A DNA stretch of 64,000 nucleotides. Origin: an uncultured Anaerolineae bacterium. Its GTDB lineage: Bacteria > Chloroflexota > Anaerolineae > Anaerolineales > Villigracilaceae. A program made the translations under genes and the position numbers. The stretch covers positions 25,643 to 89,642 of the forward strand of contig CAIJPN010000041.1 of assembly GCA_903822545.1 (NCBI GenBank), read 5' to 3'. The notes beneath the pieces are model-generated. The model worked only from the letters and a program-made list of their open reading frames with translations. It was not told the origin of the DNA and did no database searches. Below are positions 32,286 through 45,488 of this stretch, piece by piece. The stretch's first letter is position 1, and the number at the start of each line of letters is the position of its first letter.

Positions 32286-32825
32286 TTATACTTTAGATTG
32301 CCATTCGCTGGCCAGCATGCCCATAAGGAGCATATCCTCATAATGACCATGCTTGAAATTAGCCTGGCGCAGGCGGCCTTCATGCACAAATCCGCATTTT
32401 TCGTAAGTACGGATGGCGCGCGGGTTACTCTCATGAACATGCAGGAAAATCCGGTTCAGGTTGAGCGTTTCAAAACCATGCTTGCAGAGCAGGCGCACTG
32501 CCGTGCTGCCATGCCCACGATTCCAGATCGTCTTCTCGCCCAGCATAATTCCCAATTCGGCGCAGCGCACCCGCCAGTCGATATCAAAAAAGGCACAGTT
32601 GCCGATCAAACGCCAATCCTTGCTCTCGCGAATTTCAATCGAAAGCGGCTTTTCGGCTTTTTCGCGCTTCGCCAGGTTCTCAAACCACGCCTGCTCATCA
32701 GACAGAGACATCGGCAGGTAAATCGCCAGGCCGTCGTTCACATCCGGGTCATTAATCCAGCGATAAAAAGACTCAATATCCCCGCGCTCCACTGCGCGCA
32801 GGCGCATATTCTCAGTGTAAATCAT
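32286..32825 (-). CDS. GNAT acetyltransferase (RimJ/RimL-like)
   Basis: A 179-residue N-acetyltransferase of the ribosomal-protein/spermidine group. MIYTENMRLRAVERGDIESF and YRWINDPDVNDGL are typical of this group; the acetyl-CoA loop is seen as KTIWNRGHGSTAVRLLCKHG, followed by LNRIFLHVHESNPRAIRTYE and KCGFVHEGRLRQ. Overlaps the stop of meaB by four bases (ATGA), so it is coupled to it, but a functional link is not obvious. Confidence 0.9.
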   Translation of the reverse strand: MIYTENMRLRAVERGDIESFYRWINDPDVNDGLAIYLPMSLSDEQAWFENLAKREKAEKPLSIEIRESKDWRLIGNCAFFDIDWRVRCAELGIMLGEKTIWNRGHGSTAVRLLCKHGFETLNLNRIFLHVHESNPRAIRTYEKCGFVHEGRLRQANFKHGHYEDMLLMGMLASEWQSKV

Positions 32826-33820
32826 TTTCCAACTCCATTGAGCAGCAAATTGACCGCTTCGCGGGGAGAAAGCTGCCGTTTTTGGATGGAATCAACCGTT
32901 TCATCCAATCTTTTCTCCGTTAAACCCGCCCTGAAGCGTGCCACCAGTTCATTTTGCACCAACGCGTCGAATTCAGCTTCCAGCCGGGCGCGTTCCCGTT
33001 TCTGCCAGTTGCCACTCTGCCGCAGGTATTCCCCGTGGCTTTGAATTGATCCCAAAAGCTCTGGCAGCCCCTTCCCCTCGGTGGCTACCGTCCGCTGGAT
33101 GATTGGCATCCACATCCCGGCCATTTCCTCGGCGGAGGCCTGCACCGCCATATACGTGCCATGATGCTGGAAAATCTTCTGCACCGGGTGCGCCAGTTCC
33201 AGCATCGTCTTAAGGGCGCGCTCGGTGCTTTCCACGCCTGGCCTGTCAGCCTTATTAATAACCAGAATGTCAGCGATCTCCAAAATCCCGGCCTTAATCG
33301 CCTGGATTTCATCTCCCAGGCCGGGGGCTTCCACTACCAGCGTGGTGTGCGCCAGCCGGGCAATATCCACCTCGCTCTGGCCTGCGCCCACTGTTTCGAT
33401 CAGCACAATCTCAAACCCGGCGGCATCGAAAACCTGCACCACACCTGCCGTTGCCGTGGCCAACCCACCCAACGATCCCCGCGAAGCCATCGAGCGGATG
33501 AAAACGCCCTTATCGCCCGAAAGATCGCGCATCCGCACCCGGTCGCCCAGCACTGCCCCGCCCGTGAACGGGCTGGATGGGTCTACCGCCACAATCGCCA
33601 CTTTTTTGTCCAGTTTGCGAAAGTGGATCGCAATCTGATTCACTAGCGACGATTTGCCGGTTCCCGGCGCGCCAGTGATGCCAATCAGGTGTGCCCGGCC
33701 GGTGTGCGGGAACAACTCATCCAGCGCGGCCAGCCCCTCCGGGGTTTCGTTTTCCACACGAGTCAACAGGCGCGCCAGCGAAAGCCGGTCACCTGCGAGA
33801 ACAGCATCAGCGAGGGTCAT
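32822..33820 (-). CDS. meaB: Methylmalonyl-CoA mutase-associated GTPase MeaB
   Basis: A 332-residue G3E-type GTPase that guards loading and repair of the B12 cofactor of methylmalonyl-CoA mutase. P-loop GITGAPGTGKSSLVNQIAIH, then VAVDPSSPFTGGAVLGDRVR, ETVGAGQSEVDIARLAHTTL and NKADRPGVEST as the base-recognition motif. It lies downstream of the separately encoded B12-binding subunit of the mutase, with a hairpin between them. The large catalytic subunit is not in the window. Confidence 0.95.
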   Translation of the reverse strand: MTLADAVLAGDRLSLARLLTRVENETPEGLAALDELFPHTGRAHLIGITGAPGTGKSSLVNQIAIHFRKLDKKVAIVAVDPSSPFTGGAVLGDRVRMRDLSGDKGVFIRSMASRGSLGGLATATAGVVQVFDAAGFEIVLIETVGAGQSEVDIARLAHTTLVVEAPGLGDEIQAIKAGILEIADILVINKADRPGVESTERALKTMLELAHPVQKIFQHHGTYMAVQASAEEMAGMWMPIIQRTVATEGKGLPELLGSIQSHGEYLRQSGNWQKRERARLEAEFDALVQNELVARFRAGLTEKRLDETVDSIQKRQLSPREAVNLLLNGVGK

Positions 33821-33841
33821 TTTGGGTTACTCTGGGAATTT

Positions 33842-33878
33842 AACAGGCACTACGTAAGCTATCTGCGTAGTGCCTGTT
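33842..33878 (-). terminator. Hairpin between the B12-binding subunit gene and meaB
   Basis: Perfect 13-bp arms AACAGGCACTACG / CGTAGTGCCTGTT with an 11-base loop. Only a weak T-tract follows on the minus strand, so partial termination is likely. Confidence 0.55.
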
Positions 33879-33880
33879 GG

Positions 33881-34279
33881 TTATGCCGGTACGGCGCTGC
33901 GGATGTCGGCGACGATTTGTTCGGTGGAAGCCCCCGGCCCGTAGACACCGGCGACCCCCATTTCTTTCAGCGCAGGAATGTCTTCATCTGGGATAATACC
34001 GCCCAGGAAGACAAGCACATGCTCCTGCCCGTTGCCCTTGAGCAATTCCAAGATGCGCGGGGCCAGCGCCATATGCGCCCCAGACAGGATGGAAAGACCA
34101 ACCACATCCACATCCTCTTGCAGGGCCGCTTCAGCGATCATTTCAGGGGTTTGGCGCAGGCCAGTATAAATCACTTCCATACCAGCATCGCGCAGGGCGC
34201 GCGCAACCACCTTCGCGCCCCGGTCGTGACCATCCAGGCCAGGTTTGGCAACAAGCACACGGATTTTGCGTTCAGCCAT
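33881..34279 (-). CDS. Methylmalonyl-CoA mutase small (B12-binding) subunit
   Basis: A 132-residue stand-alone cobalamin-binding domain. The cobalt-ligand motif DGHDRG (DxHxxG) is in [33 protein letters not shown] and [20 protein letters not shown] follow, as in the C-terminal domain of methylmalonyl-CoA mutases. It is encoded as a separate subunit, as in archaea and some bacteria. The start has GGAGG five bases ahead. Together with MeaB and an acyl-CoA carboxylase subunit elsewhere in the window, it points to a propionyl/methylmalonyl-CoA route. Confidence 0.93.
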
Positions 34280-34529: not shown

Positions 34530-34676
34530 CCGTTCCCCATTAAGAAAGGAAGAGCCATTTTTTTAATGGGGAACGGGGATTATCTCCGTTTCATTACAAT
34601 TACCATTCAGCGCTTGCGCTTGACCTGACCAACTCGGGGGGATACAATAATGTGACGCTTGTTCTATACTTTATGC

Positions 34677-34687: not shown

Positions 34688-34936
34688 ATGGACTCAATGC
34701 GCGTATTCTGGTCTGAATGGGCTGAAACGTTGCGTCGCCGGGGCCTGGATGGATTTGCAGCCTGGTTTCTTGAGGCTGCTGGCCCACTTAACATACTCGG
34801 AGCGCAATTGCTGTACATCGGGAAACCGATGCTCGGTTCCAATTGGGATGAGCGTATACAGGCTGCCGCGCGCCTGCTGGAAGATGACGAAGAATCGCAG
34901 GCATTCATCGAATACCTGAAAGGACAAACGCCGTGA
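34688..34936 (+). CDS. First small gene of the unknown operon
   Basis: An 82-residue mostly helical protein (FWSEWAETLRRRGLDGFAAW, AAARLLEDDEESQAFIEYLK). No family is recognised. The middle segment FLEAAGPLNILGAQLLYIGK is hydrophobic enough to lie against a membrane. Its last codons overlap the next gene by four bases (GTGA), which ties it to the operon. Likely a small accessory subunit of the membrane complex encoded downstream; this is inference from position only. Confidence 0.7.
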   Translation: MDSMRVFWSEWAETLRRRGLDGFAAWFLEAAGPLNILGAQLLYIGKPMLGSNWDERIQAAARLLEDDEESQAFIEYLKGQTP

Positions 34937-35679
34937 ATTTAACGAGTCTCGCCGGACTGGGCATTGTACTGGTATCTGCCATTCTCCTGGCGGTATTTGC
35001 CTTCCTGTACCGTCGCTCCCCGTTTGTCTTTCGTAAGATCCCCGCCTTTAGCCGCCTCCGCCAGGCCATCAACTTTGTGGTGGAAGATGGCACACGCCTG
35101 CACATTTCGCTGGGACGTGGCAGCCTGGTTACGCCTTTTGGAGCGGCTGCGCTCTCCGGGTTGAGTTTGTTGCGCAAAATCGGGGAAACCACCTCGCTCA
35201 GTGACCGTCCCACCATCGCTACCAGCGGTGACGGGTTGGTTTCACTCGCCGCACAGGACACCCTGCGCGCCTCGCTTGAAGCAGTCGCCCCCAACCAACC
35301 ATTCAACATTCTCAACAGCCGTTTCACCGGCCCAACCCCCTTCTCCTACGCCGCCGGGACAATGCCCGCCATCCGCGATGAAGGGGTCGCTACCAATGTG
35401 CTGATCGGCAACTTCGGCGTTGAAGCTGCCTTGCTGGTGGATGCTGCCGAGCGGCAGGGTGCGCTCATCATCGCCGCCAGTGACAACCTCCCAGCCCAGG
35501 CTGTGCTGTACGCAGCCACCAAAGAGCCTGTGCTCGGCGAAGAACTCTACGCTGCCGGGGCATACCTCCAGGCTGGAGCATTCCACGCCGCCAGCCTGCG
35601 TGTTCAAGACATCCTGCGCTGGGGCATCATCGCTATCATCGTTGTCGGCGCACTCCTCAAACTGGTGGGAATTTTATGA
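34933..35679 (+). CDS. Bitopic membrane protein of the unknown operon (DUF6754-like)
   Basis: A 248-residue protein beginning with a membrane helix (residues 4-24) and ending with another (about 229-247). Between them is a globular domain with INFVVEDGTRLHISLGRGSL, SLSDRPTIATSGDGLVSLAA, GVATNVLIGNFGVEAALLVD and ALIIAASDNLPAQAVLYAAT. From memory this resembles DUF6754, a family of unknown function; the match needs checking. The start is GTG in the four-base overlap with the gene before. The next gene again overlaps by four bases. Confidence 0.75.
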   Translation: MNLTSLAGLGIVLVSAILLAVFAFLYRRSPFVFRKIPAFSRLRQAINFVVEDGTRLHISLGRGSLVTPFGAAALSGLSLLRKIGETTSLSDRPTIATSGDGLVSLAAQDTLRASLEAVAPNQPFNILNSRFTGPTPFSYAAGTMPAIRDEGVATNVLIGNFGVEAALLVDAAERQGALIIAASDNLPAQAVLYAATKEPVLGEELYAAGAYLQAGAFHAASLRVQDILRWGIIAIIVVGALLKLVGIL

Positions 35680-36287
35680 AATTAAAAGGCCTGTTCTCCA
35701 CCGCCATTGCCGTTATCTCCGGGATGATCGTCCTGGTGGGGCTTTTTGCGCCCATCGCGCTGCTTCCTGTTATTTCATCGTTGTTCCTGCAATGGGCCAG
35801 TATCCTGGCGGGCATCGCCATCCTGATTGGCATTTTTAGTATGTTTGGCACACACCTGTCAAAAATTCGCCAGCGCTCCAAAAACTCCACCTACAGTTTT
35901 GCGCTGCTACTTTTCTTCCTGCTCACCTTTTTTGCCTCGGCCTTGCCCCAAAATACTTTGTTGGAAGGTATCCTGCTCAACAATATCATGATCCCTGTCG
36001 AAGTCAGCCTGATGGCGTTGCTGTCAGTCTCCCTCGTCTACGCCTCCGCCCGGCTGCTCACCCATCGCACCGATTTGAAATCCATCATCTTCATCGTTAC
36101 CGCGCTGGTCACCCTCATTGGATTAACACCCTGGCCGGTTATCGGTACCCTGCCCATCGTCAGTGGGCTTGTCCAGATGCTGGCAGCAGGCGGCGCGCGC
36201 GGCATGTTGATCGGCATCGCCCTTGGCACACTCCTGACCGGGATGCGAGTCATCTTTGGGGCCGATCGCCCCTATGGGGGTAAATAA
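35676..36287 (+). CDS. Polytopic membrane protein of the unknown operon
   Basis: A 203-residue hydrophobic protein with about six membrane helices (for example AVISGMIVLVGLFAPIALLP, the segment FALLLFFLLTFFASAL, IIFIVTALVTLIGLTPWPVI). A short charged cytoplasmic loop (GTHLSKIRQRSKNS) follows the second helix. No family recognised. It starts within the stop region of the DUF6754-like gene (ATGA overlap), and its own stop shares a base with the start of the scaffold gene, so translation is tightly coupled. Confidence 0.75.
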   Translation: MKLKGLFSTAIAVISGMIVLVGLFAPIALLPVISSLFLQWASILAGIAILIGIFSMFGTHLSKIRQRSKNSTYSFALLLFFLLTFFASALPQNTLLEGILLNNIMIPVEVSLMALLSVSLVYASARLLTHRTDLKSIIFIVTALVTLIGLTPWPVIGTLPIVSGLVQMLAAGGARGMLIGIALGTLLTGMRVIFGADRPYGGK

Positions 36288-39200
36288 TGGCTGAGATTAC
36301 CTGCCCCCTGTGTGGAAGGGCCAACCCCGCCAAAAGCGAGTCCTGCTCCAGTTGCGGCACGCCACTTAAACAGAGCACCACTCCGCTAGACCCGATCAAA
36401 CCGGGCGAGCTTCCCACCAAAAAATCCACATCTGACCTCGAATCAACCCTGCCCGGCTGGCTGCGTGATGCGCGCCAGGCCGCATCTGATGACACCCACC
36501 AAAACGCACCGGGCGATGATTTTACCTTCAATTTTGGTGCCACTGAACCTGAAAAACCTGCCGAAAGCAGCATGCCCGACTTTCTCAAAAAAGCCATGGC
36601 GGCCGATAATTCCCCCGCTGCCCCGGTAGACTTCCTGGCCGGGCTGGCTCAAACCTCTTCCGACGACGATGAAGAAGTACCCGATTGGCTTTCCAGCCTG
36701 CGCGGTTCCACGCCGCCGGAACCTCCCGCCGCTGCTGCACCACCACCACCCGCCCCACCCGCCCCGCCGCCAACTGCCACTTCGTCAGACTGGCTGGCCG
36801 GCTTCAAAGATGATCCTGAGCCAGCCGCCCCGCTTCCGGCTGAACAAAACATGGATTGGGGCTTCGGCTCCAGCCAGGCCTTCGATTTCAACAACCTGGA
36901 TACAGAACCCGAACCGCCCGCCACTGGCACATCACCCGACTGGCTCTCATCCTTTGGAGGCAGCCAACCTTCCACCCAGGACAATAGCGGTTTTGATTCA
37001 GCCCCAGCTGCATCAGACAGCCCAGATTGGCTCAAATCCCTGGCATCCTCCAGCCCGGAATCAGCCGCCCCTCAGCCTGCTTCGCCGCTTCCTCCTGCTG
37101 CTGGCCCCGCTGCCAGTGATACGCCAGACTGGCTTTCCAGTTTTTCTGCCCCTGAGCCCCCCGTAAAAAACCAGGACACGCCTTCATCCGACTGGCTGTC
37201 CGATTTCAGTCAACCTGCCGCCCCCGCCAGTGATGCACCAGATTGGCTTTCCGGCCTTTCCACGCCGGAAGCACCCGCCGGGCAACAGCAACCGCCCGCC
37301 GCCGAAAGCGCCGCTGCATCAGACTGGCTCGCGGAATTCAGCTCACCAGCTGCATCCACCCCTGCGCCCGCCGCCGAGACGCCAGATTGGCTTTCTGGCC
37401 TTTCCACGCCGGAGACACCCGCCGGGCAACAGCAACCGCCCGCCGCCGAAAGCGCCGCAACCCCAGACTGGCTCGCGGAATTCAGCTCACCGGCTGCATC
37501 CACTCCTGCATCTGCCGCCGAGACGCCAGATTGGCTTTCTGGCCTGTCCACGCCGGAGACACCCGCCGGGCAACAGCAACCGCCCGCCGCCGAAAGCGCC
37601 GCAACCCCAGACTGGCTCGCGGAATTCAGCTCACCAACTGCATCCACCCCTGCGCCCGCCACCGAGACGCCGGATTGGCTTTCTGGCCTTTCCACGCCGG
37701 AGACACCCGCCGGGCAACAGCAACCGCCCGCCGCCGAAAGCGCCGCAACCCCAGACTGGCTCGCGGAATTCAGCTCACCGGCTGCATCCACCCCTGCGCC
37801 TGCCACAGAAACACCCGCCGCAGAAAGCACAGATTGGCTCTCGGGGTTTGGCCAGGCTGAGTCTGCTGCCCCGGCAGAAGGAATGCCAGATTGGTTGGCC
37901 GGTTTGCAAGGAACACCCGCAGCGCAGCCGGCGGTTGGTAGTGAAACAACCCTGTCGTTTGGCCTTCCGGCTCCTGGAGAAACGCCGCCCAGTCCGTTAG
38001 CATCTATGCCAGATGCCGGGGCGGATGATTTCAATACGATGCCCGATTGGTTGTCTGAATCTTTGGGCGAGAAACCTGCCACGCCTGAAGAAAAACCCGC
38101 AGCCAAGACGCCAAAGGCTTTCCAGACAGGTTCGTTGGGTGAGATCAGTCTGCCGGCGGGTTCTTCTGAGGATATGCCCGATTGGTTGGCCGGACTGGGC
38201 GCGGTATCCACCCCTGGTGGAATGCCCGCCGCGGATTCTGGAACAAGCCAGGCTGCTGATGCAGACTGGTTGGCGGGGTTCAATGCCAGCCAGGATCAAC
38301 CTGTCGAAACGCCGGGCAGCAGCCAGGGCGGAATGCCCGCGGGTGGATTGGCCCAGGCGTTGGATCAGCCAGGTGGCGAGAGCCTGCCCGGGATGGGGTC
38401 TTCATCCCCATTTGACCAAAGTATGGACTCGCTGCTGTCGATGGATATGCCCGACTGGCTGGCGGGTTTCAAACCGGCTGATACTCCCGCGATTTCGGAT
38501 GGCTCGGATGCCAGCGCGGGTGAGCCGGACCTGGCACAGACTGAACTGCCTTCATGGGTGCAGGCCATGCGCCCGGTGGAGACGGTGATCCGCCAGACCC
38601 AGGATGATGAACAGTCGGAAGCTGAGAAGAGCGGGCCGCTGGCCGGACTGCGGAATACGCTGCCTGGGGTAAGCCAGTTTTCGATCCGCAAGCCGCGGCC
38701 ATATTCGATCAAGATACAGGCCAGTGAGCTTCAGCAAGCCCAATCGGCGATGCTGGAGGAATTGTTGCTGGCTGAGACAACCCCTCTGCCGTTGAAGGCT
38801 CAGGCGCGGGTGGTTCCTAACCGGACGCTGCGCTGGCTGGTTGCGGGTGTGCTGCTGTTGGCGATTTTGTTGCCGTTGGTGATGGGCCTTTTCAGTGGTG
38901 AAGCATGGCTGCCGCGCCCAACCAATTTGGATATTGCCACGAATAATTTCATCATCGCGGTGGATGCGCTGCCTGCCAATGCTCCTGTACTGGTGGCGAC
39001 AGACTACCAGGCCGGTTTTGCCGGTGAGATGGAAGCCGCGGCTGCGCCGGTGCTCAGTCATTTGATGTTGAAGGGTGCGCGCCTGGCGTTTGTCACGTCG
39101 CTGCCTTCTGGCTCGTTGATGGCGGAGCGGTTGGTGGCTGGCCAGGCAAACCAGGGCTACCTGCCAGGTGAACAATATGTTTTCTTGGGGTATCTGCCTG

Positions 39201-39670
39201 GTGGCGCGGCGGGGATTCGGGTTTTTGCTGATTCTCCGGCTGCGGTGGCCGGGTCGAATACGGCCAATGGGGATCTGTGGACAACCCCGGCCCTGGAAGG
39301 TGTTTCTAAGTTAAGTGATTTTGCGGCGCTGGTTGTACTGGCCGATAACCCGGATGATGCGCGCCTGTGGGTTGAGCAGGCCCAACCCCAACTGGAAGGC
39401 AAGCCGATGCTGGTGGTTATCAGCGCCCAGGCCGAGCCGATGATCCGACCGTATTATGACTCGGGTCAAATCCAGGGGCTGGTGACGGGTCTTTCGGGCG
39501 GCATGGCTTATGAAACTTATTTTTCGCAGTCTGGCGCCGCTTCCAGTTATTGGGATGCGTATGGGATTGGTTTGGTTGCGGCACAGTTGTTGATCCTGGT
39601 TGGTGCAGGTTGGAGCCTGGTGGCCGGGTTGCGCGCCCGCCAGAGCCGGCAGGGATTGGAAGAGGCTTAG
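36287..39670 (+). CDS. Large zinc-ribbon scaffold protein with an array of DWL motifs and a membrane-anchored C-terminal domain
   Basis: An 1127-residue protein. N-terminal zinc ribbon CX2C...CX2C (CPLCGRANPAKSESCSSCG). Residues about 30-780 are Pro/Ala/Ser-rich and probably disordered. They are punctuated by about 20 copies of a short acidic-aromatic motif, (P/S/A/T)DWL(S/A/K), such as TPDWLSGLS, TPDWLAEFS and MPDWLAGL. Four 144-bp (48-residue) units in tandem hold eight of these motifs. A membrane helix follows at about 849-868, then an outside domain of about 230 residues and a second helix near 1100-1118. No known family for the whole protein. The layout suggests a multivalent cytoplasmic docking arm for another member of the operon. 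Confidence 0.8.
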   Translation: MAEITCPLCGRANPAKSESCSSCGTPLKQSTTPLDPIKPGELPTKKSTSDLESTLPGWLRDARQAASDDTHQNAPGDDFTFNFGATEPEKPAESSMPDFLKKAMAADNSPAAPVDFLAGLAQTSSDDDEEVPDWLSSLRGSTPPEPPAAAAPPPPAPPAPPPTATSSDWLAGFKDDPEPAAPLPAEQNMDWGFGSSQAFDFNNLDTEPEPPATGTSPDWLSSFGGSQPSTQDNSGFDSAPAASDSPDWLKSLASSSPESAAPQPASPLPPAAGPAASDTPDWLSSFSAPEPPVKNQDTPSSDWLSDFSQPAAPASDAPDWLSGLSTPEAPAGQQQPPAAESAAASDWLAEFSSPAASTPAPAAETPDWLSGLSTPETPAGQQQPPAAESAATPDWLAEFSSPAASTPASAAETPDWLSGLSTPETPAGQQQPPAAESAATPDWLAEFSSPTASTPAPATETPDWLSGLSTPETPAGQQQPPAAESAATPDWLAEFSSPAASTPAPATETPAAESTDWLSGFGQAESAAPAEGMPDWLAGLQGTPAAQPAVGSETTLSFGLPAPGETPPSPLASMPDAGADDFNTMPDWLSESLGEKPATPEEKPAAKTPKAFQTGSLGEISLPAGSSEDMPDWLAGLGAVSTPGGMPAADSGTSQAADADWLAGFNASQDQPVETPGSSQGGMPAGGLAQALDQPGGESLPGMGSSSPFDQSMDSLLSMDMPDWLAGFKPADTPAISDGSDASAGEPDLAQTELPSWVQAMRPVETVIRQTQDDEQSEAEKSGPLAGLRNTLPGVSQFSIRKPRPYSIKIQASELQQAQSAMLEELLLAETTPLPLKAQARVVPNRTLRWLVAGVLLLAILLPLVMGLFSGEAWLPRPTNLDIATNNFIIAVDALPANAPVLVATDYQAGFAGEMEAAAAPVLSHLMLKGARLAFVTSLPSGSLMAERLVAGQANQGYLPGEQYVFLGYLPGGAAGIRVFADSPAAVAGSNTANGDLWTTPALEGVSKLSDFAALVVLADNPDDARLWVEQAQPQLEGKPMLVVISAQAEPMIRPYYDSGQIQGLVTGLSGGMAYETYFSQSGAASSYWDAYGIGLVAAQLLILVGAGWSLVAGLRARQSRQGLEEA
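37235..37810 (+). repeat. Four tandem 144-bp repeats inside the scaffold gene
   Basis: Units of exactly 144 bases (48 codons) beginning near 37238, 37382, 37526 and 37670, nearly identical. Each encodes PDWLSGLSTPE..., GQQQPPAAESA and (T/S)DWLAEFSSP. Recent unit duplication is implied by the near identity at DNA level. Confidence 0.88.
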
Positions 39671-39671
39671 G

Positions 39672-40355
39672 ATGCAGATATCCATCGATTTGATTGCTGG
39701 ACTGCTAAGTTTTTTGTTCACCCTGATGATTTTGAGCTATATCATCGGAGATAACCCTTTCTTCCGGTTGGCTGTGTATGCGTTTGTTGGGATTTCTGCG
39801 GGATATGTAGCCTGGATTGTGCTTGACCTGGTGCTGATCGATAAACTCATCCGCCCGCTCATCCAGGGCAGCATGGCTGAACGGCTGCTACTGGCGATCC
39901 CGATGCTGCTGGCAGTGATGCTGTTCATGAAAATCAGCCCGCGCCTGGAATTTGCCGGACGCCCAGTGCTGGCCTTCCTGGTGGGCGTAGGGGCGGCCGC
40001 GGCCATCTATGGTGCGCTGATGGGTACGATTTTCCCACAAGTGCAGGCATCCACCAACAGCTTCGATACGTCTGGCATTGCAGAAACCGGGTTGAAGGTC
40101 GAAGCCATCGGACGCGGTTTCTTTATCCTTTTGGGCACAATCTCCACCCTGGCTTATTTCCAGTTTGGGATTCGCGCCAGCTCTGCCACCAGCGGCAAAC
40201 GCGGCATGGTGATGCAGGCAGTGGCATTCCTCGGATTGGTATTTTTTGCCATCACCTTTGGCGTTTTGTTCGCCGGTGTTTATTCTGCTGCCATCACTGC
40301 ACTGATTGACCGGGTGCAGAGCATGGTAACTTTTGTCGCTTCGTTTTTCTTCTAA
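39672..40355 (+). CDS. Second polytopic membrane protein of the unknown operon
   Basis: A 227-residue protein with about six membrane helices (ISIDLIAGLLSFLFTLMILS, the segment LAVYAFVGISAGYVAWIVLD, then MLLAVMLFMKISPRLEF). A loop with ASTNSFDTSGIAETGLKVEA faces one side. The start ATG at 39672 lies one base after the scaffold stop. No family is recognised, but the pattern is that of a channel- or anchor-type subunit conserved in position next to the ASKHA ATPase gene. Confidence 0.75.
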   Translation: MQISIDLIAGLLSFLFTLMILSYIIGDNPFFRLAVYAFVGISAGYVAWIVLDLVLIDKLIRPLIQGSMAERLLLAIPMLLAVMLFMKISPRLEFAGRPVLAFLVGVGAAAAIYGALMGTIFPQVQASTNSFDTSGIAETGLKVEAIGRGFFILLGTISTLAYFQFGIRASSATSGKRGMVMQAVAFLGLVFFAITFGVLFAGVYSAAITALIDRVQSMVTFVASFFF

Positions 40356-40360
40356 GACTT

Positions 40361-42109
40361 ATGCCCACATCCCTTGTTGAAGGCAATTCCCTGCTGACGG
40401 TTGATATTGGTTCGGTCAACACCCGCGCCGCGTATTTTGACGTAGTGGAGGGTAGTTACCGCTTCATTGCCATGGGACAGGCCCGTACCACCGCCAACCC
40501 GCCAACCAACAACATCATCATCGGCGTGCAGGATGCCATCCGCAACCTGCAAAACCTGACCGGTAAAACCCTGATGGATGACGAGGGGCGGCTGGTCATC
40601 CCATCCCAGCCAGATGGCACCGGTGTGGATCACCTGGCAACATCAGTCTCAGCCGGCAGCGCGCTCAAAACTGTCGTGGTTGGCCTGCTGCCCGATGTTT
40701 CCCTGAGAAGTATCGAATCCCTGGCGCAAACTACCTATACCAGGGTAGTAGAGACGTTGGGGATGAACGATTCACGCAAAATGGAAGAACAGGTAGATGC
40801 CATCCTGCGCTATTCGCCCGATTTGATCATGATCGCGGGCGGTACGGATGGCGGCGCCACCCAGTCTTTGCAAAAACTAATCGAAGTAATCGGCCTGACA
40901 TCTTACCTGCTGCCTGAAAGCAAACGCCCGGCCATTCTCTACGCTGGCAATCATGCCCTGGCCGATGACGTGGAAGCTGCGCTCAAAAACATCAGCTCTG
41001 CTGTGGCGATTTGCCCCAACATTCGCCCATCGCTGGAATTGGAAGACCTGGCCCCGGCCCAAAGCGCCCTGGCAGGCCTGGTAATGCAGATCCGCGAACA
41101 ACAGATGTCCCAACTCCATGATGTACGCTACCTTTCGGGCGGCACACTCATCCCAACGGCCTATGCCCTGGGGCGCATGGTGCGCTTCCTGGCGCGCTAT
41201 TTCGGCTCTGACAAGGGCGTGTTTAATGTCGATTTGGGCGCATCGGCCCTGACAACCGCCACATCCCTGAGTGGGGATCTAAATCTCAGCGTTTTCCCGC
41301 AATTTGGGATGGGCGAACCACTCTCAGGGCTGCTACGCTACACCAACCTGGAAGAGATCGAACGTTGGGTGACAGTGGATATTCCCAAAGAAGCCCTGCG
41401 CGACTACCTTTACCAGAAATCCATCTACCCGGCGAACACCCCTGCCAACGCAGAAGAACTGGCGATCGAGCAGGCCATTGCCCGGCATGTGATGTACCTT
41501 TCGATGCGCGCAATGACAGCGCGCTTCCCCGGCGCTTTCAGTGGTGAAGGCCAGTTCCCCCAGTTTGAACCCATCATCGCATCCGGTTCCACGATCACCA
41601 ATGCGCCAACTGCCGGGCAAAAGCTGCTGATGCTGCTCGATGGGCTCCAGCCGGTAGGCGTCACAACCATCGTGCTCGACCAGAACAACCTTTTACCCAT
41701 GCTCGGGGTGGCTGCTGAGCAAAATAACCTCATGCCAGTGCAGGTGCTCGATTCTGGTGCCTTGTCTTACCTTGCCAAAGTCATTTGCCCGGTCGGGAAT
41801 ACCGCCTACGGCACACCCATCCTCAATCTCAAACTCATCCAGGAAGATGGCATGACCTCTGAGACTGAAACCAAGATGGGCGCGCTGCAAATGCTGCCAG
41901 TACCCAGTGGACGCATGGCGCGCCTGCAACTGCGTCCCATTGGGCGCACTGATGTAGGCCTTGGCCCCGGCAAAGGCATGGAAGTGGAAATTGTCGGCAG
42001 CCCGTTGGGCGTTGTCGTGGATGCGCGTGGCCGACCGCTCAAACTCCCCACCGAGGGTGGGGCGCGGCGCGACCTGCTCAAAAAATGGCTTTCAAGAGTG
42101 GGAGGCTAA
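40361..42109 (+). CDS. GlmL/MutL-type ASKHA ATPase of the unknown operon
   Basis: A 582-residue protein related to the glutamate mutase L (MutL/GlmL) family of actin-like ATPases. Phosphate-1 motif LLTVDIGSVNTRAAYFD, connecting and phosphate-2 motif GVFNVDLGASALTTATSL, adenosine motif IIASGSTITNAP. The DLIMIAGGTDGGA segment is shared with GlmL. GlmL proteins normally sit by the B12-dependent glutamate mutase genes mutS/mutE; none are here. The C-terminal 150 residues (from about 430) form a separate beta-rich domain ending GGARRDLLKKWLSRVGG. The neighbours are membrane proteins, so an energising or assembly role, as PilM has in pilus systems, is plausible but unproven. Confidence 0.82.
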   Translation: MPTSLVEGNSLLTVDIGSVNTRAAYFDVVEGSYRFIAMGQARTTANPPTNNIIIGVQDAIRNLQNLTGKTLMDDEGRLVIPSQPDGTGVDHLATSVSAGSALKTVVVGLLPDVSLRSIESLAQTTYTRVVETLGMNDSRKMEEQVDAILRYSPDLIMIAGGTDGGATQSLQKLIEVIGLTSYLLPESKRPAILYAGNHALADDVEAALKNISSAVAICPNIRPSLELEDLAPAQSALAGLVMQIREQQMSQLHDVRYLSGGTLIPTAYALGRMVRFLARYFGSDKGVFNVDLGASALTTATSLSGDLNLSVFPQFGMGEPLSGLLRYTNLEEIERWVTVDIPKEALRDYLYQKSIYPANTPANAEELAIEQAIARHVMYLSMRAMTARFPGAFSGEGQFPQFEPIIASGSTITNAPTAGQKLLMLLDGLQPVGVTTIVLDQNNLLPMLGVAAEQNNLMPVQVLDSGALSYLAKVICPVGNTAYGTPILNLKLIQEDGMTSETETKMGALQMLPVPSGRMARLQLRPIGRTDVGLGPGKGMEVEIVGSPLGVVVDARGRPLKLPTEGGARRDLLKKWLSRVGG

Positions 42110-42112
42110 ACC

Positions 42113-43165
42113 ATGCCAGCACAGGTAGTTCATATCCTCCCCGTCACCACCATTGTCCGCAAGCGTCTCCTGCCGGTAGATGGACAGATTATCGTCAAAG
42201 AAAACCAGAAAGTTTCGGCATCTGACTCTATCGCGGAGGCCATTACCGGACGCAAACACGTTATCATCGATGTTGCTTCGCAGCTGAAGCTGTCTCCCAA
42301 AAAAGCCGAACCGTTCATCAAAGTAAAACGCGGACAAAAAGTCGCCAAAGGCGATATCGTGGCCGAATCTGGCGGGCTGCTGGCGCAGGAAATCACAACC
42401 CCGGCCAGTGGGCGCGTTGTGGTGTTGGGCGGAGGCAAAATTGTGCTGGAAACCGGCGGTTCCCAGGTGGAACTGAAAGCCGGGCTGAGTGGCACGGTCA
42501 CTGCAATCATCCCCAATCGTGGAGTGATTATCCGCGCGGTGGGCAGCCTGATCCAGGGTGTGTGGGGCAACAACCGCGTCGACACCGGCGTAATGATCAG
42601 CCTGCTCGATAAACCCGAAGACACCCTCGAAGCCTCGCGCATGGATGTCAGCCTGCGCGGCGCAATCTTGCTGGCCGGGCATGTCGCCGAGGCATCCGTC
42701 ATCAAAGCCGCCGGAGACCTGCCGGTGCGCGGCTTAATCTTGTCCAGCATCTCCCCCAATGCCATCAACGCGGCGGCGCAGGCCAACTTCCCCGTGCTGG
42801 TGCTTGAAGGCTTCGGGAAACGCCCCCTCAGCCCCACCCTTTTCAAACTATTGACCACCAATGTCAAACGTGAAGTTTCCATACTCGCAGACATGGATCG
42901 CCAGTCCGGGCAACGCCCAGAGCTGGTCATTTCCCTGCCGCTATCGCAAGAACCCCCGGAACCCAGGGATGACGAAGCCTTTGCCCCCGGTCAGACTGTG
43001 CGGATTTGCTGGTTGACTCGCCCCGCCCAAACCGGGACTCTCACCCAACTCCGCCCTGGAATTTCGACCCTGCCCAATGGCGTGAGCGCCCCCGCGGCAG
43101 ATGTGCGCCTCGAAAACGGCGAGCAAATCCTTGTTCCGCTCAACAACCTCGAAGTCTTGGGGTAA
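42113..43165 (+). CDS. Protein with biotinyl/lipoyl-like motifs, unknown operon
   Basis: A 350-residue soluble-looking protein. IVKENQKVSASDSIAEAITG and VKRGQKVAKGDIVAESGGLL followed by TTPASGRVVVLGGGKIVLET resemble the barrel-sandwich hybrid (lipoyl-like) fold, but no lysine in an MKM-type motif is seen. The middle part (VRGLILSSISPNAINAAAQA, FPVLVLEGFGKRPLS) is alpha/beta, and the C-terminal part is a small beta barrel. It starts three bases after the ATPase gene, so the two products may work together. No function can be assigned. Confidence 0.75.
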   Translation: MPAQVVHILPVTTIVRKRLLPVDGQIIVKENQKVSASDSIAEAITGRKHVIIDVASQLKLSPKKAEPFIKVKRGQKVAKGDIVAESGGLLAQEITTPASGRVVVLGGGKIVLETGGSQVELKAGLSGTVTAIIPNRGVIIRAVGSLIQGVWGNNRVDTGVMISLLDKPEDTLEASRMDVSLRGAILLAGHVAEASVIKAAGDLPVRGLILSSISPNAINAAAQANFPVLVLEGFGKRPLSPTLFKLLTTNVKREVSILADMDRQSGQRPELVISLPLSQEPPEPRDDEAFAPGQTVRICWLTRPAQTGTLTQLRPGISTLPNGVSAPAADVRLENGEQILVPLNNLEVLG

Positions 43166-43189
43166 AATATTAGAAACAGGAGAAGAACG

Positions 43190-43894
43190 ATGGCTAACAC
43201 CTTCATTTTCGACGATAACGAACAGCCCGAACCCGATGATAACAGCCTGCCCGCCGAAACGGACGAACCCGCCCCCGAGGGGGGAGATGGCGAATCGGGG
43301 AATAATCGCACCTTTATGATCGTGGCGATTGCGCTGGGAGGCATTGTTCTGCTCTCCCTGATCTGTGTGGCAGTTTACGCCTTGGTCATCCTGCCCGGGC
43401 AGCGCAGCCAGGCCAACGATGTCAACGCCACCAACGTTGCGGTGCAGACCCAGGCCGCCATCGGTGTCATGCAAACCAGCACAGTCATGGCTTACTCGCC
43501 CACCCCGCTGCCCACCGAAACATCCCTGCCGACCGAAACGCCCACCCCGCTCATCCCCATGCCCACCGATACCCCCGTTCCCGGTGTTACCATCGACCCG
43601 TTGACCGCCACCGTCAACGCCCAGTTTACCCAACTGTCCAAAATGCAGTTGCTGACCGAACAGGCCAAAGCGGGCACACAGGCTCCAGGCGCAGGCACGG
43701 GTACAGCAGCTTCCAGCGGAGGGGCAGGCAGTACAGCCCCTGCCAATACCAGTGGAACCCCAAAAGCCACTGCCACCATGCCTAACAGCGGTTTTGCCGA
43801 TGAAGTCGGACTGCCCGGCATGATCATCCTTTCGGCTGTGCTGCTGGTTGTCATCCTGCTTGCCCGCCGCCTGCGCATGGCCCCGGCACGCTAA
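43190..43894 (+). CDS. Bitopic protein with LPXTG-like C-terminal tail, last gene of the unknown operon
   Basis: A 234-residue protein. Acidic cytoplasmic N-terminus (residues 1-40, rich in Asp/Glu/Pro), a membrane helix at about 43-65 (FMIVAIALGGIVLLSLICVA), a Pro/Thr-rich outside linker, and a C-terminal tail MPNSGFADEVG + hydrophobic stretch + ARRLR. That tail has the tripartite layout of sortase-type sorting signals, with MPNSG in place of LPXTG. A good ribosome site (AGGAG) precedes it, unlike the other genes of the operon. A strong bidirectional terminator follows at 43918-43949. Confidence 0.75.
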   Translation: MANTFIFDDNEQPEPDDNSLPAETDEPAPEGGDGESGNNRTFMIVAIALGGIVLLSLICVAVYALVILPGQRSQANDVNATNVAVQTQAAIGVMQTSTVMAYSPTPLPTETSLPTETPTPLIPMPTDTPVPGVTIDPLTATVNAQFTQLSKMQLLTEQAKAGTQAPGAGTGTAASSGGAGSTAPANTSGTPKATATMPNSGFADEVGLPGMIILSAVLLVVILLARRLRMAPAR

Positions 43895-43917
43895 GCCCAA
43901 AATTTCCCTATGGTTAT

Positions 43918-43949
43918 AAAAAAGCGCGGAAAAGCTCCGCGCTTTTTTT
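43918..43949. terminator. Bidirectional terminator of the unknown operon and the phosphohexomutase gene
   Basis: GCGCGGA-AAAGC-TCCGCGC with flanking runs of As and Ts, between convergent genes. Confidence 0.88.
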
Positions 43950-43974
43950 GTTGCCCGTTCTGGTGGATGAATTT

Positions 43975-45432
43975 TTACACGATGCTGGCTGCCACTTTTT
44001 GCCCATACCCCAGCAAATCCTTAACCATCTGCTGGGTGCGCCCTTCAGCGTAAACCCGTAAAACCGGTTCTGTGCCCGATGGGCGGATGAGTAGCCACGA
44101 ATCGTCGGCCATAACATATTTTATACCATCCATGCTCGAGACTTCAGCCACTTTTTCGCTGCCGATCTCGGCCGGGGCACCCTTCACCAACGTTTCGGTC
44201 ATCTCCCCTTTCGAGACGGGGCGGCTCAGGCGCAGATCGGCGCGTTCATAAAAGGCCGGGCCAACATCATCGAGCAAGTCGGAGACAAGTTCAGAAAGCG
44301 GTTTGCGCGCCTGCGCGATGATCTCTACCAGCAACAGGCCCATGATCGGCCCATCGCCTTCAGGAATGTGCCCTTTGAATGAGATGCCGCCCGATTCTTC
44401 ACCGCCGATCAGCACATTTTCGGTCATCATGTAATCAGCGATGTGATTGAATCCCACCGGTGTTTCGTGGATTTGCAGGCCGTAACGCTTGGCCAGGCGG
44501 TCGATCATGCGTGTGGTTGAGACAGTGCGCACCACAGAGCCAGTCCAGCCGCGTTTTTCCACCAGGTAGCGCAGCGCCAGCGCCATAATTTTGTGCGGGT
44601 CAACAAAATTACCGCGCTCATCCATCGCGCCGATGCGATCGGCATCGCCATCTGTCGCCAGGCCAAAGCTGCCCATCCCGGCCCCAATCGCGCCCGCCAG
44701 CGGGGAGAGATATTTGCCAATCGGTTCCGGGTGGACTCCGCCAAAGCCAGGATTCATCTCCCCGCGAATTTCGACGATCTCACAGCCGGTGCCGTGCAAA
44801 AACGAACGAATGGTGCCGCGTCCAGAGCCATACATCGAATCGACCACAAAGCGTTGTGGATTTTCGGCGATAATATCAGCGTTAATCAGCTTGCGCAGGT
44901 GGTCAAAATAGGGGGGCAGCGGGTTGAATTTTTGGATCAGCCCCATGCTGCGGGCTTTTTCAAAATCCATCAGGTTGGGGCCGCGTCCCCGTTCTTCGTT
45001 ATCGTTGATATAAACTTCCACGCGGCGGCACTGCTCAGGCAACGCTGACCCGCCGTAAGCTGCCTTGAGCTTGACGCCGTTATAGCGCGGCGCATTGTGC
45101 GAGGCCGTAATCATCACCCCGCCAATGGCGCTGAGATTCTTAACCGCGTAAGAAATAGCCGGGGTGGGCGCATCGGCCTGGGCCAGGTAAACAGTAAAAC
45201 CATTGGCGGCCAGCACACGCGCCACATCCTGTGCATAGCGGTCAGACAGGAAGCGGGTATCAAAACCCACCACAAATTTGCGTGGATCGGGTTTGGCGTT
45301 GCCGATATTGGGGTCCCAGTGTTCCGATGCAACTGCATCGGCAATGGCCTGGGCAACCATGCGCAGGTTGCTGAATGTAAAACTATCTGAAATAACGGCG
45401 CGCCAGCCGTCGGTGCCAAAGTGTATGGGCAT
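43975..45432 (-). CDS. Phosphohexomutase (phosphoglucomutase/phosphomannomutase family)
   Basis: A 485-residue alpha-D-phosphohexomutase. Family motifs in order: IHFGTDGWRAVISDSFTFSN at the start, GVMITASHNAPRYNGVK (phosphoserine), LATDGDADRIGAMDERG (metal-binding DGDADR), GGEESGGISFKGHIPEGDG (sugar-binding) and WLLIRPSGTEPVLRVYAEG (phosphate-binding). Substrate could be glucose, mannose or glucosamine phosphate. The start at 45432 has GGAGA ahead and fits the family N-terminus; upstream in-frame codons do not. A terminator hairpin separates it from the DUF389 gene. Confidence 0.93.
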   Translation of the reverse strand: MPIHFGTDGWRAVISDSFTFSNLRMVAQAIADAVASEHWDPNIGNAKPDPRKFVVGFDTRFLSDRYAQDVARVLAANGFTVYLAQADAPTPAISYAVKNLSAIGGVMITASHNAPRYNGVKLKAAYGGSALPEQCRRVEVYINDNEERGRGPNLMDFEKARSMGLIQKFNPLPPYFDHLRKLINADIIAENPQRFVVDSMYGSGRGTIRSFLHGTGCEIVEIRGEMNPGFGGVHPEPIGKYLSPLAGAIGAGMGSFGLATDGDADRIGAMDERGNFVDPHKIMALALRYLVEKRGWTGSVVRTVSTTRMIDRLAKRYGLQIHETPVGFNHIADYMMTENVLIGGEESGGISFKGHIPEGDGPIMGLLLVEIIAQARKPLSELVSDLLDDVGPAFYERADLRLSRPVSKGEMTETLVKGAPAEIGSEKVAEVSSMDGIKYVMADDSWLLIRPSGTEPVLRVYAEGRTQQMVKDLLGYGQKVAASIV

Positions 45433-45458
45433 TTGCGTTCTCCAATTTCCAAAAATAG

Positions 45459-45488
45459 TTCCAGTGACATCTGCAAATGTCACTGGAA
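45459..45488 (-). terminator. Terminator of the HAD-DUF389 transcript
   Basis: Perfect 12-bp arms TTCCAGTGACAT / ATGTCACTGGAA with a 6-base loop, followed on the minus strand by CTATTTTTGG. Confidence 0.7.

Follow-up and report, generated by a model that had tools for sequence, protein, structure and literature searches.

Positions 34688 to 43894 of the window (the whole stretch of 64,000 nucleotides from an uncultured Anaerolineae bacterium that was analyzed here) raise the question of what an operon of eight genes with hardly a named product does in the cell. An earlier note, made from the letters of this DNA alone, had described eight tightly packed plus-strand genes here, and all of them could be recovered in order:

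g1, 34688..34936, + strand: small protein of 82 amino acids in which a transmembrane segment was not found
g2, 34933..35679, + strand: DUF6754 protein with a Rossmann-like domain, predicted to be cytoplasmic, between two transmembrane segments
g3, 35676..36287, + strand: polytopic membrane protein with 6 predicted segments
g4, 36287..39670, + strand: scaffold with an N-terminal zinc ribbon, an array of W-L motifs and, at the C-terminus, a transmembrane segment, a Rossmann-like domain and a second transmembrane segment
g5, 39672..40355, + strand (start taken as 39672): polytopic membrane protein with 5 to 7 predicted segments
g6, 40361..42109, + strand: ASKHA ATPase by prediction, in a Chloroflexota subfamily of its own within the MutL/GlmL family
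g7, 42113..43165, + strand: barrel-sandwich hybrid (RnfC_N-like), middle domain and C-terminal KOW domain
g8, 43190..43894, + strand: two transmembrane segments around a Pro/Thr-rich linker, with a C-terminal LPxTG-like signal, transmembrane segment and Arg-rich end

According to these coordinates, g1/g2 and g2/g3 overlap by 4 bases each and g3/g4 by 1 base, and gaps of 1, 5, 3 and 24 bases separate g4/g5, g5/g6, g6/g7 and g7/g8, respectively. Only two of the products obtained a Pfam name above the cut-off, g2 (DUF6754, PF20539; 87.2 bits, cut-off 27) and g6 (MutL), so that the ATPase is not the sole member of a named family, as had been assumed in the earlier note. The operon is a conserved system of the Chloroflexota whose anatomy and conservation are firm, and it is apparently uncharacterized in the literature searched; the name DUF6754 was not found in an open-literature search.

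The conservation of the locus was analyzed by collecting relatives of g5 from the genome collection, of which 279 were found, and by examining the best 80 loci. Using the raw open reading frames (ORFs), all eight genes were counted in 65 of the 80 loci, and each of the remaining 15 is cut by a sequence or contig end; a longest-ORF picker, which loses genes, had given 23 of 80. The operon genes all lie on one strand, and sorting them by ORF start gives the same order in 79 loci, the exception being L127, in which the longest-ORF start of g3 is placed 34 bases before the start of g2. The order g1-g2-g3-g4-g5-g6 recurs around DUF6754 matches, Chloroflexia-type loci included, and homologues of g1 were found at the same position from Anaerolineae-type to Chloroflexia-type loci. 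The genes thus co-occur, and a scattering in related genomes, which the earlier note had named as the outcome speaking against a joint system, was not seen. Some locus sets were chosen by hand, and the alignments contain part of the members together with the window (A1 40/46, A2 37/38, A3 38/43, A4 30/35, A5 31/36 and A6 39/61).

For the distribution within the phylum, 251 Chloroflexota genomes were surveyed, along with 14 control genomes for DUF6754. DUF6754 was detected in 56 of the 251 genomes (55 of them above the family cut-off) and in none of the 14 controls. All 56 genomes possess an operon-type g6 and 54 also a g7. Profile searches assigned an operon-type g6 to 150 genomes, not counting G089 and G178, which have only the canonical GlmL, and a g7 to 148, part of both numbers being weak matches with E-values between 1e-10 and 1e-4. 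Both genes are found together in 141 genomes and neither in 94 (p = 4e-49, Fisher test ignoring the tree). Furthermore, g7 is located within 1.5 kb after g6 in 111 of the 114 genomes of a hand-typed list, which omits about 21 Chloroflexia-type genomes with g7 elsewhere as well as genomes in which the position of g6 or of g7 was missing.

The ATPase g6 could be confirmed as a GlmL/MutL-type protein by its match to PF13941 (208.2 bits, cut-off 27), while it fails the GlmL equivalog NF040745 (96.3 bits, cut-off 475). In the region beyond the Pfam match, D554 and R556 are invariant in 40 aligned rows. The absence of glutamate mutase was likewise borne out, as glutamate mutase E (PF06368) had no match in the genome of the window; it was found above the cut-off in only 4 of the 251 genomes, and a constant association of the ATPase with glutamate mutase genes was therefore not seen. 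In one genome (G176), a GlmL-type protein (530 bits) is encoded beside glutamate mutase and the operon g6 about half a megabase away. Judged by sequence, these are two paralogues in two contexts, and g6 is distinct from GlmL, the accessory protein of glutamate mutase. No match of g6 to an FtsA or PilM family was obtained at E 1 or better in Pfam and NCBIfam. FtsA itself is present above the cut-off in 236 of the 251 genomes, including that of the window, so that in most genomes g6 would be an additional protein and not a substitute division anchor. Chloroflexia-type g6 proteins carry a long tail; of the long tails, 9 of 15 matched a basic-aromatic pattern at their end, compared to 0 of 47 short tails and 1 of 763 other ORFs. 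A further protein of 1264 amino acids with a MutL-type part lies beside transporter-like genes in a genome without a g7 match (G184, L100:4233-8027) and seemingly belongs to another branch of the MutL family.

The protein g4 had been noticed earlier as a giant DWL-motif scaffold with a zinc ribbon, and its array could now be described as 21 W-L copies, consisting of 16 P-x-W-L motifs and 5 in which S, T or A replaces the proline. It is located partly inside a 144-base tandem repeat (37238-37804), and the N-terminal zinc ribbon is recognized by weak Pfam matches. At 45 of the 58 g6 loci with 3 kb of upstream sequence, g6 is preceded by an ORF with three or more P-x-W-L motifs, and in 35 of these 45 a zinc ribbon was found by pattern search. 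Among 357 other ORFs of at least 300 amino acids, 14 carry at least three motifs; 10 of the 14 are the scaffold itself, unlabelled, and the other 4 are truncated parts of it next to g2 and g3. In 46 scaffolds, which were preselected for at least three motifs, 718 motif copies were counted (3 to 63 per protein) compared to 14 after per-protein shuffling, and 58% of all tryptophans sit within the motif, which has the preference [DE]-[LV]-P-[DA]-W-L-[RQ]-[ED]. No 12-mer is common to the scaffold proteins of seven families, which fits a repeated, independent re-expansion of the motif; such an expansion of one short motif would point to selection on motif number.

The charges flanking the transmembrane segments of g4, judged by eye, favour an outside loop, and one of 39 relatives has a Thr/Pro linker together with a bacterial SH3 domain between its membrane segments. 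For these reasons, the loop is probably outside; the zinc ribbon and motif part are predicted to be cytoplasmic. The Rossmann-like domain of g4 is predicted to face the outside and that of g2 the cytoplasm. A structure model of the C-terminal 297 amino acids of g4 reached a mean predicted local distance difference test score of 91.5.

The remaining products were partly reassigned. The supposed lipoyl-like protein g7 turned out to be a barrel-sandwich and KOW protein: its N-terminus is RnfC_N-like just below the Pfam cut-off, and an alignment of 38 g7 proteins matched SPT5 chains at the C-terminal KOW domain (E 4e-9). With an E-value limit of 0.05, Pfam KOW was detected in 11 of these 38 proteins (lowest E 4e-5), though not in the g7 of the window alone. 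Other RnfC or NusG domains were not found in g7 by Pfam scans, and the RnfC subfamily TIGR01945 gave 18.5 bits, which does not reach the cut-off of 245.95. Of the four membrane proteins that had been read as two polytopic and two bitopic ones, g3 and g5 are indeed polytopic, but g2 and g8 are not strictly bitopic, because each has two hydrophobic segments, as has g4. The C-terminal signal of g8 is MPNSG in the window and LPxTG in 13 of 14 and 41 of 63 relatives; three sortases are encoded in the genome of the window.

These components would fit a membrane-spanning scaffold in which g6, together with its partner g7, docks on the P-x-W-L array of g4 and signals to the envelope, a tentative reading to which a probability of about 0.4 is given. 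Docking on the repeated motifs of the predicted cytoplasmic part may be direct or mediated by a third protein, the receptor then being g6, g7 or that third protein. A third receptor is conceivable because the motif also occurs in the tail of some g6 proteins and in two TPR proteins. In this scheme, g6 would bind ATP and change its state, and a nucleotide-dependent clustering signal would be passed through the membrane to the envelope. The proteins g2, g3, g5 and g8 might build the membrane part or hold it in place, with sortase possibly attaching g8, and the number of ATPases brought together beneath a given patch of membrane would depend on the array. A more far-reaching version, which appears unlikely, is a transmembrane cytomotive scaffold, in which the actin-superfamily ATPase would polymerize or cluster on the array and drive or gate envelope structures of filaments such as a gliding motor or septal channels; the array length of 3 to 63 motifs would then tune the number of motors.

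Several observations weigh against this scheme or, in the case of the first ones, against a membrane-only reading. The genes g2, g3 and g5 were not found in loci L087-L105, and of the 20 loci retrieved with this set, half have a zinc-ribbon protein with at least three motifs encoded just before g6; none of the eight such scaffolds examined from L087-L105 has a transmembrane segment. Scaffold, g6 and g7 are therefore a soluble unit in some lineages, for which reason the membrane arm was probably acquired later, and the g6-g7 core is distributed more widely than the membrane genes. The g7 of Chloroflexia-type genomes lies apart from g6, no upstream ORF with at least three motifs was found at 13 of the 58 g6 loci, and nearby motif proteins were not found for several g6-g7 pairs. 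The g6 of the window itself lacks the basic-aromatic tail. At five Herpetosiphon-type loci, P-x-W-L/M motifs are present in the tail of g6 itself, which can be read in favour of the docking scheme but may also mean that the receptor is another protein. Neither of the two Rossmann-like models (g2 and g4) was matched by Foldseek at E 0.001 or better. Another receptor is also suggested by two more proteins in the genome of the window which carry several PDWL/LPxWL motifs together with TPR repeats and may use the same receptor or be its clients:

motif/TPR protein 1, L115:7752-9275 (G000:C71:22751-24274): strong TPR match, cut by a contig end
motif/TPR protein 2, L116:2-1528 (G000:C203): weak TPR match

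The membrane machine resembling PilM systems that the earlier note had proposed by analogy is plausible but unproven: it is favoured by the motif-rich, predicted cytoplasmic part and the two predicted transmembrane segments of g4 and by the basic-aromatic tails of Chloroflexia-type g6 relatives, whereas the soluble scaffolds and the still wider g6-g7 pair speak against a version confined to the membrane.

The same soluble scaffolds and the wider g6-g7 core would be expected of an Hsp70-like chaperone or assembly system, in which g6 and g7 remodel clients gathered by the scaffold motifs, the membrane genes only place the system near envelope clients, and the KOW domain of g7 touches ribosomes or nascent chains. 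This explanation is doubtful but has to be considered, given the KOW profile match, the two TPR proteins with the motif that the genome encodes at other sites and the accessory proteins of B12 enzymes that the MutL family includes according to NCBIfam names. However, no constant client gene stands beside g6-g7 in the loci inspected, where the neighbours vary by lineage, and the DUF6754 arm accompanies g6 in 56 genomes. The kinship with B12 accessory proteins also allows a GlmL-like helper of a B12 mutase, with methylmalonyl-CoA mutase as the partner, and the window has MeaB and a B12-binding protein adjacent to the operon. Within three genes to each side, the range used for all neighbour counts, these two occur in only 14 and 12 of the 80 loci, and together with the rarity of glutamate mutase E, the separate GlmL of G176 and the low equivalog score of g6 this makes such a helper highly improbable.

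A machine dedicated to multicellular filaments, such as a gliding motor or a septal junction, is unlikely as well. It is favoured by the operon in G110 (L045), matched to the gliding filament Herpetosiphon aurantiacus 114-95T, and in G118, G238 and G166, which fit Chloroflexus and Roseiflexus (both according to the available part of PMC3368417), as well as in records named Oscillochloris and Bellilinea. The accessible parts of two publications assign no genes beyond Tad pili to septal channels or Chloroflexota gliding (PMC7332563, PMC13104615). However, g6-g7 is also found in Thermomicrobium and other lineages, so that a role in filaments only cannot explain the core. Still less probable is a regulator of envelope or storage polysaccharide, although sugar genes occur near the operon. 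A phosphoglucomutase-type gene lies convergently downstream in 38 of the 80 loci, and in L103 the genes downstream of g7 encode AnmK and a glucosamine isomerase. In 28 loci a presumably GlgC-like gene precedes the operon in the same orientation, no more than three genes away, a similar gene in L066 being confirmed by Pfam. In the Herpetosiphon-type loci L045 and L046, g6 is followed on the same strand by genes taken to be Wzz-like and of other envelope types. Moreover, of the 224 genomes in which any MraY-like match was obtained, 150 possess g6, compared to none of the 27 genomes lacking such a match. Against this, no sugar gene is constant and none lies inside the operon, only 161 of the 251 genomes pass the MraY cut-off, and the MraY pattern is confounded by the tree: it may reflect ancestry only, because the 27 genomes are all small and fit lineages reported, in the part of PMC10608941 that was available, to have lost wall genes.

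The following transcription signals were located at the two ends of the operon:

34620..34648, + strand: best sigma-70-like promoter match, TTGACC-17-TACAAT (10/12 positions, consensus match only)
43916..43950, + strand: strong intrinsic terminator, symmetrical and possibly bidirectional

The TTGACC-17-TACAAT site replaces the TATACT promoter named earlier, whose boxes lie a few bases 5′ of the ATG, as the best promoter-like site, neither being more than a consensus match. The single strong terminator was upheld by its fold (-22.4 kcal/mol, z -4.6; none of 200 shuffles equally good), even though it was missed by a simple terminator scan. Upstream, MeaB and the B12-binding protein (both by Pfam) are encoded divergently at 32822-34279, and the phosphoglucomutase-type gene downstream lies convergently at 43975-45483, the copy in the window being confirmed by Pfam. 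Anti-phage defence models of PADLOC gave no match at E 0.01 for seven of the eight proteins (g1 was left out). In other genomes, one or two regulator-like genes follow the detached g7 in L198, L199, L200, L214 and L215, these being a receiver-histidine kinase and a receiver protein in L200. The Thermomicrobium-like loci L201 and L207 (family f54) have a 221-amino-acid zinc-ribbon protein with two P-x-W-L motifs before g6-g7, and the best FtsA matches in their genomes reach only about E 1e-17.

In total, an unnamed ATPase system is present in about 60% of the sampled Chloroflexota (150/251), a phylum with little known cell biology, and its DUF6754 membrane arm in about a fifth (56/251), with a short motif named here that has been expanded again and again. 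The presence of the operon in the cultured gliding filament Herpetosiphon aurantiacus makes a contribution to gliding, septal channels or envelope assembly directly testable. For annotation, such ATPases should not be read as glutamate mutase or mismatch-repair 'MutL' proteins.

Among known systems, GlmL/MutL (NF040745, PF13941) shares the ATPase family with g6, but g6 is encoded in a different, conserved operon, has the extra region with D554 and R556, and its genome gave no match to glutamate mutase E. DUF6754 (PF20539) has g2 as a member, and the two ends of g7 resemble the barrel-sandwich of RnfC and NqrA (N-terminus) and the KOW domain of NusG/Spt5 (C-terminus). In architecture, the proposed system resembles FtsA-FtsN and PilM-PilN, in which an actin-like protein is bound to the part of a membrane protein that reaches into the cytoplasm as a peptide (as described in the available part of PMC7613929): here, too, an actin-superfamily protein would lie under the membrane, with a partner combining a cytoplasmic peptide and an outside domain. 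The basic-aromatic tail of the Chloroflexia-type g6 is found where FtsA has its amphipathic helix (same source and part). In contrast to FtsA and PilM, g6 belongs to another family and FtsA is present separately in the genome, and in contrast to FtsN and PilN, g4 has many repeated motifs instead of one site, begins with a zinc ribbon and is predicted to cross the membrane twice.

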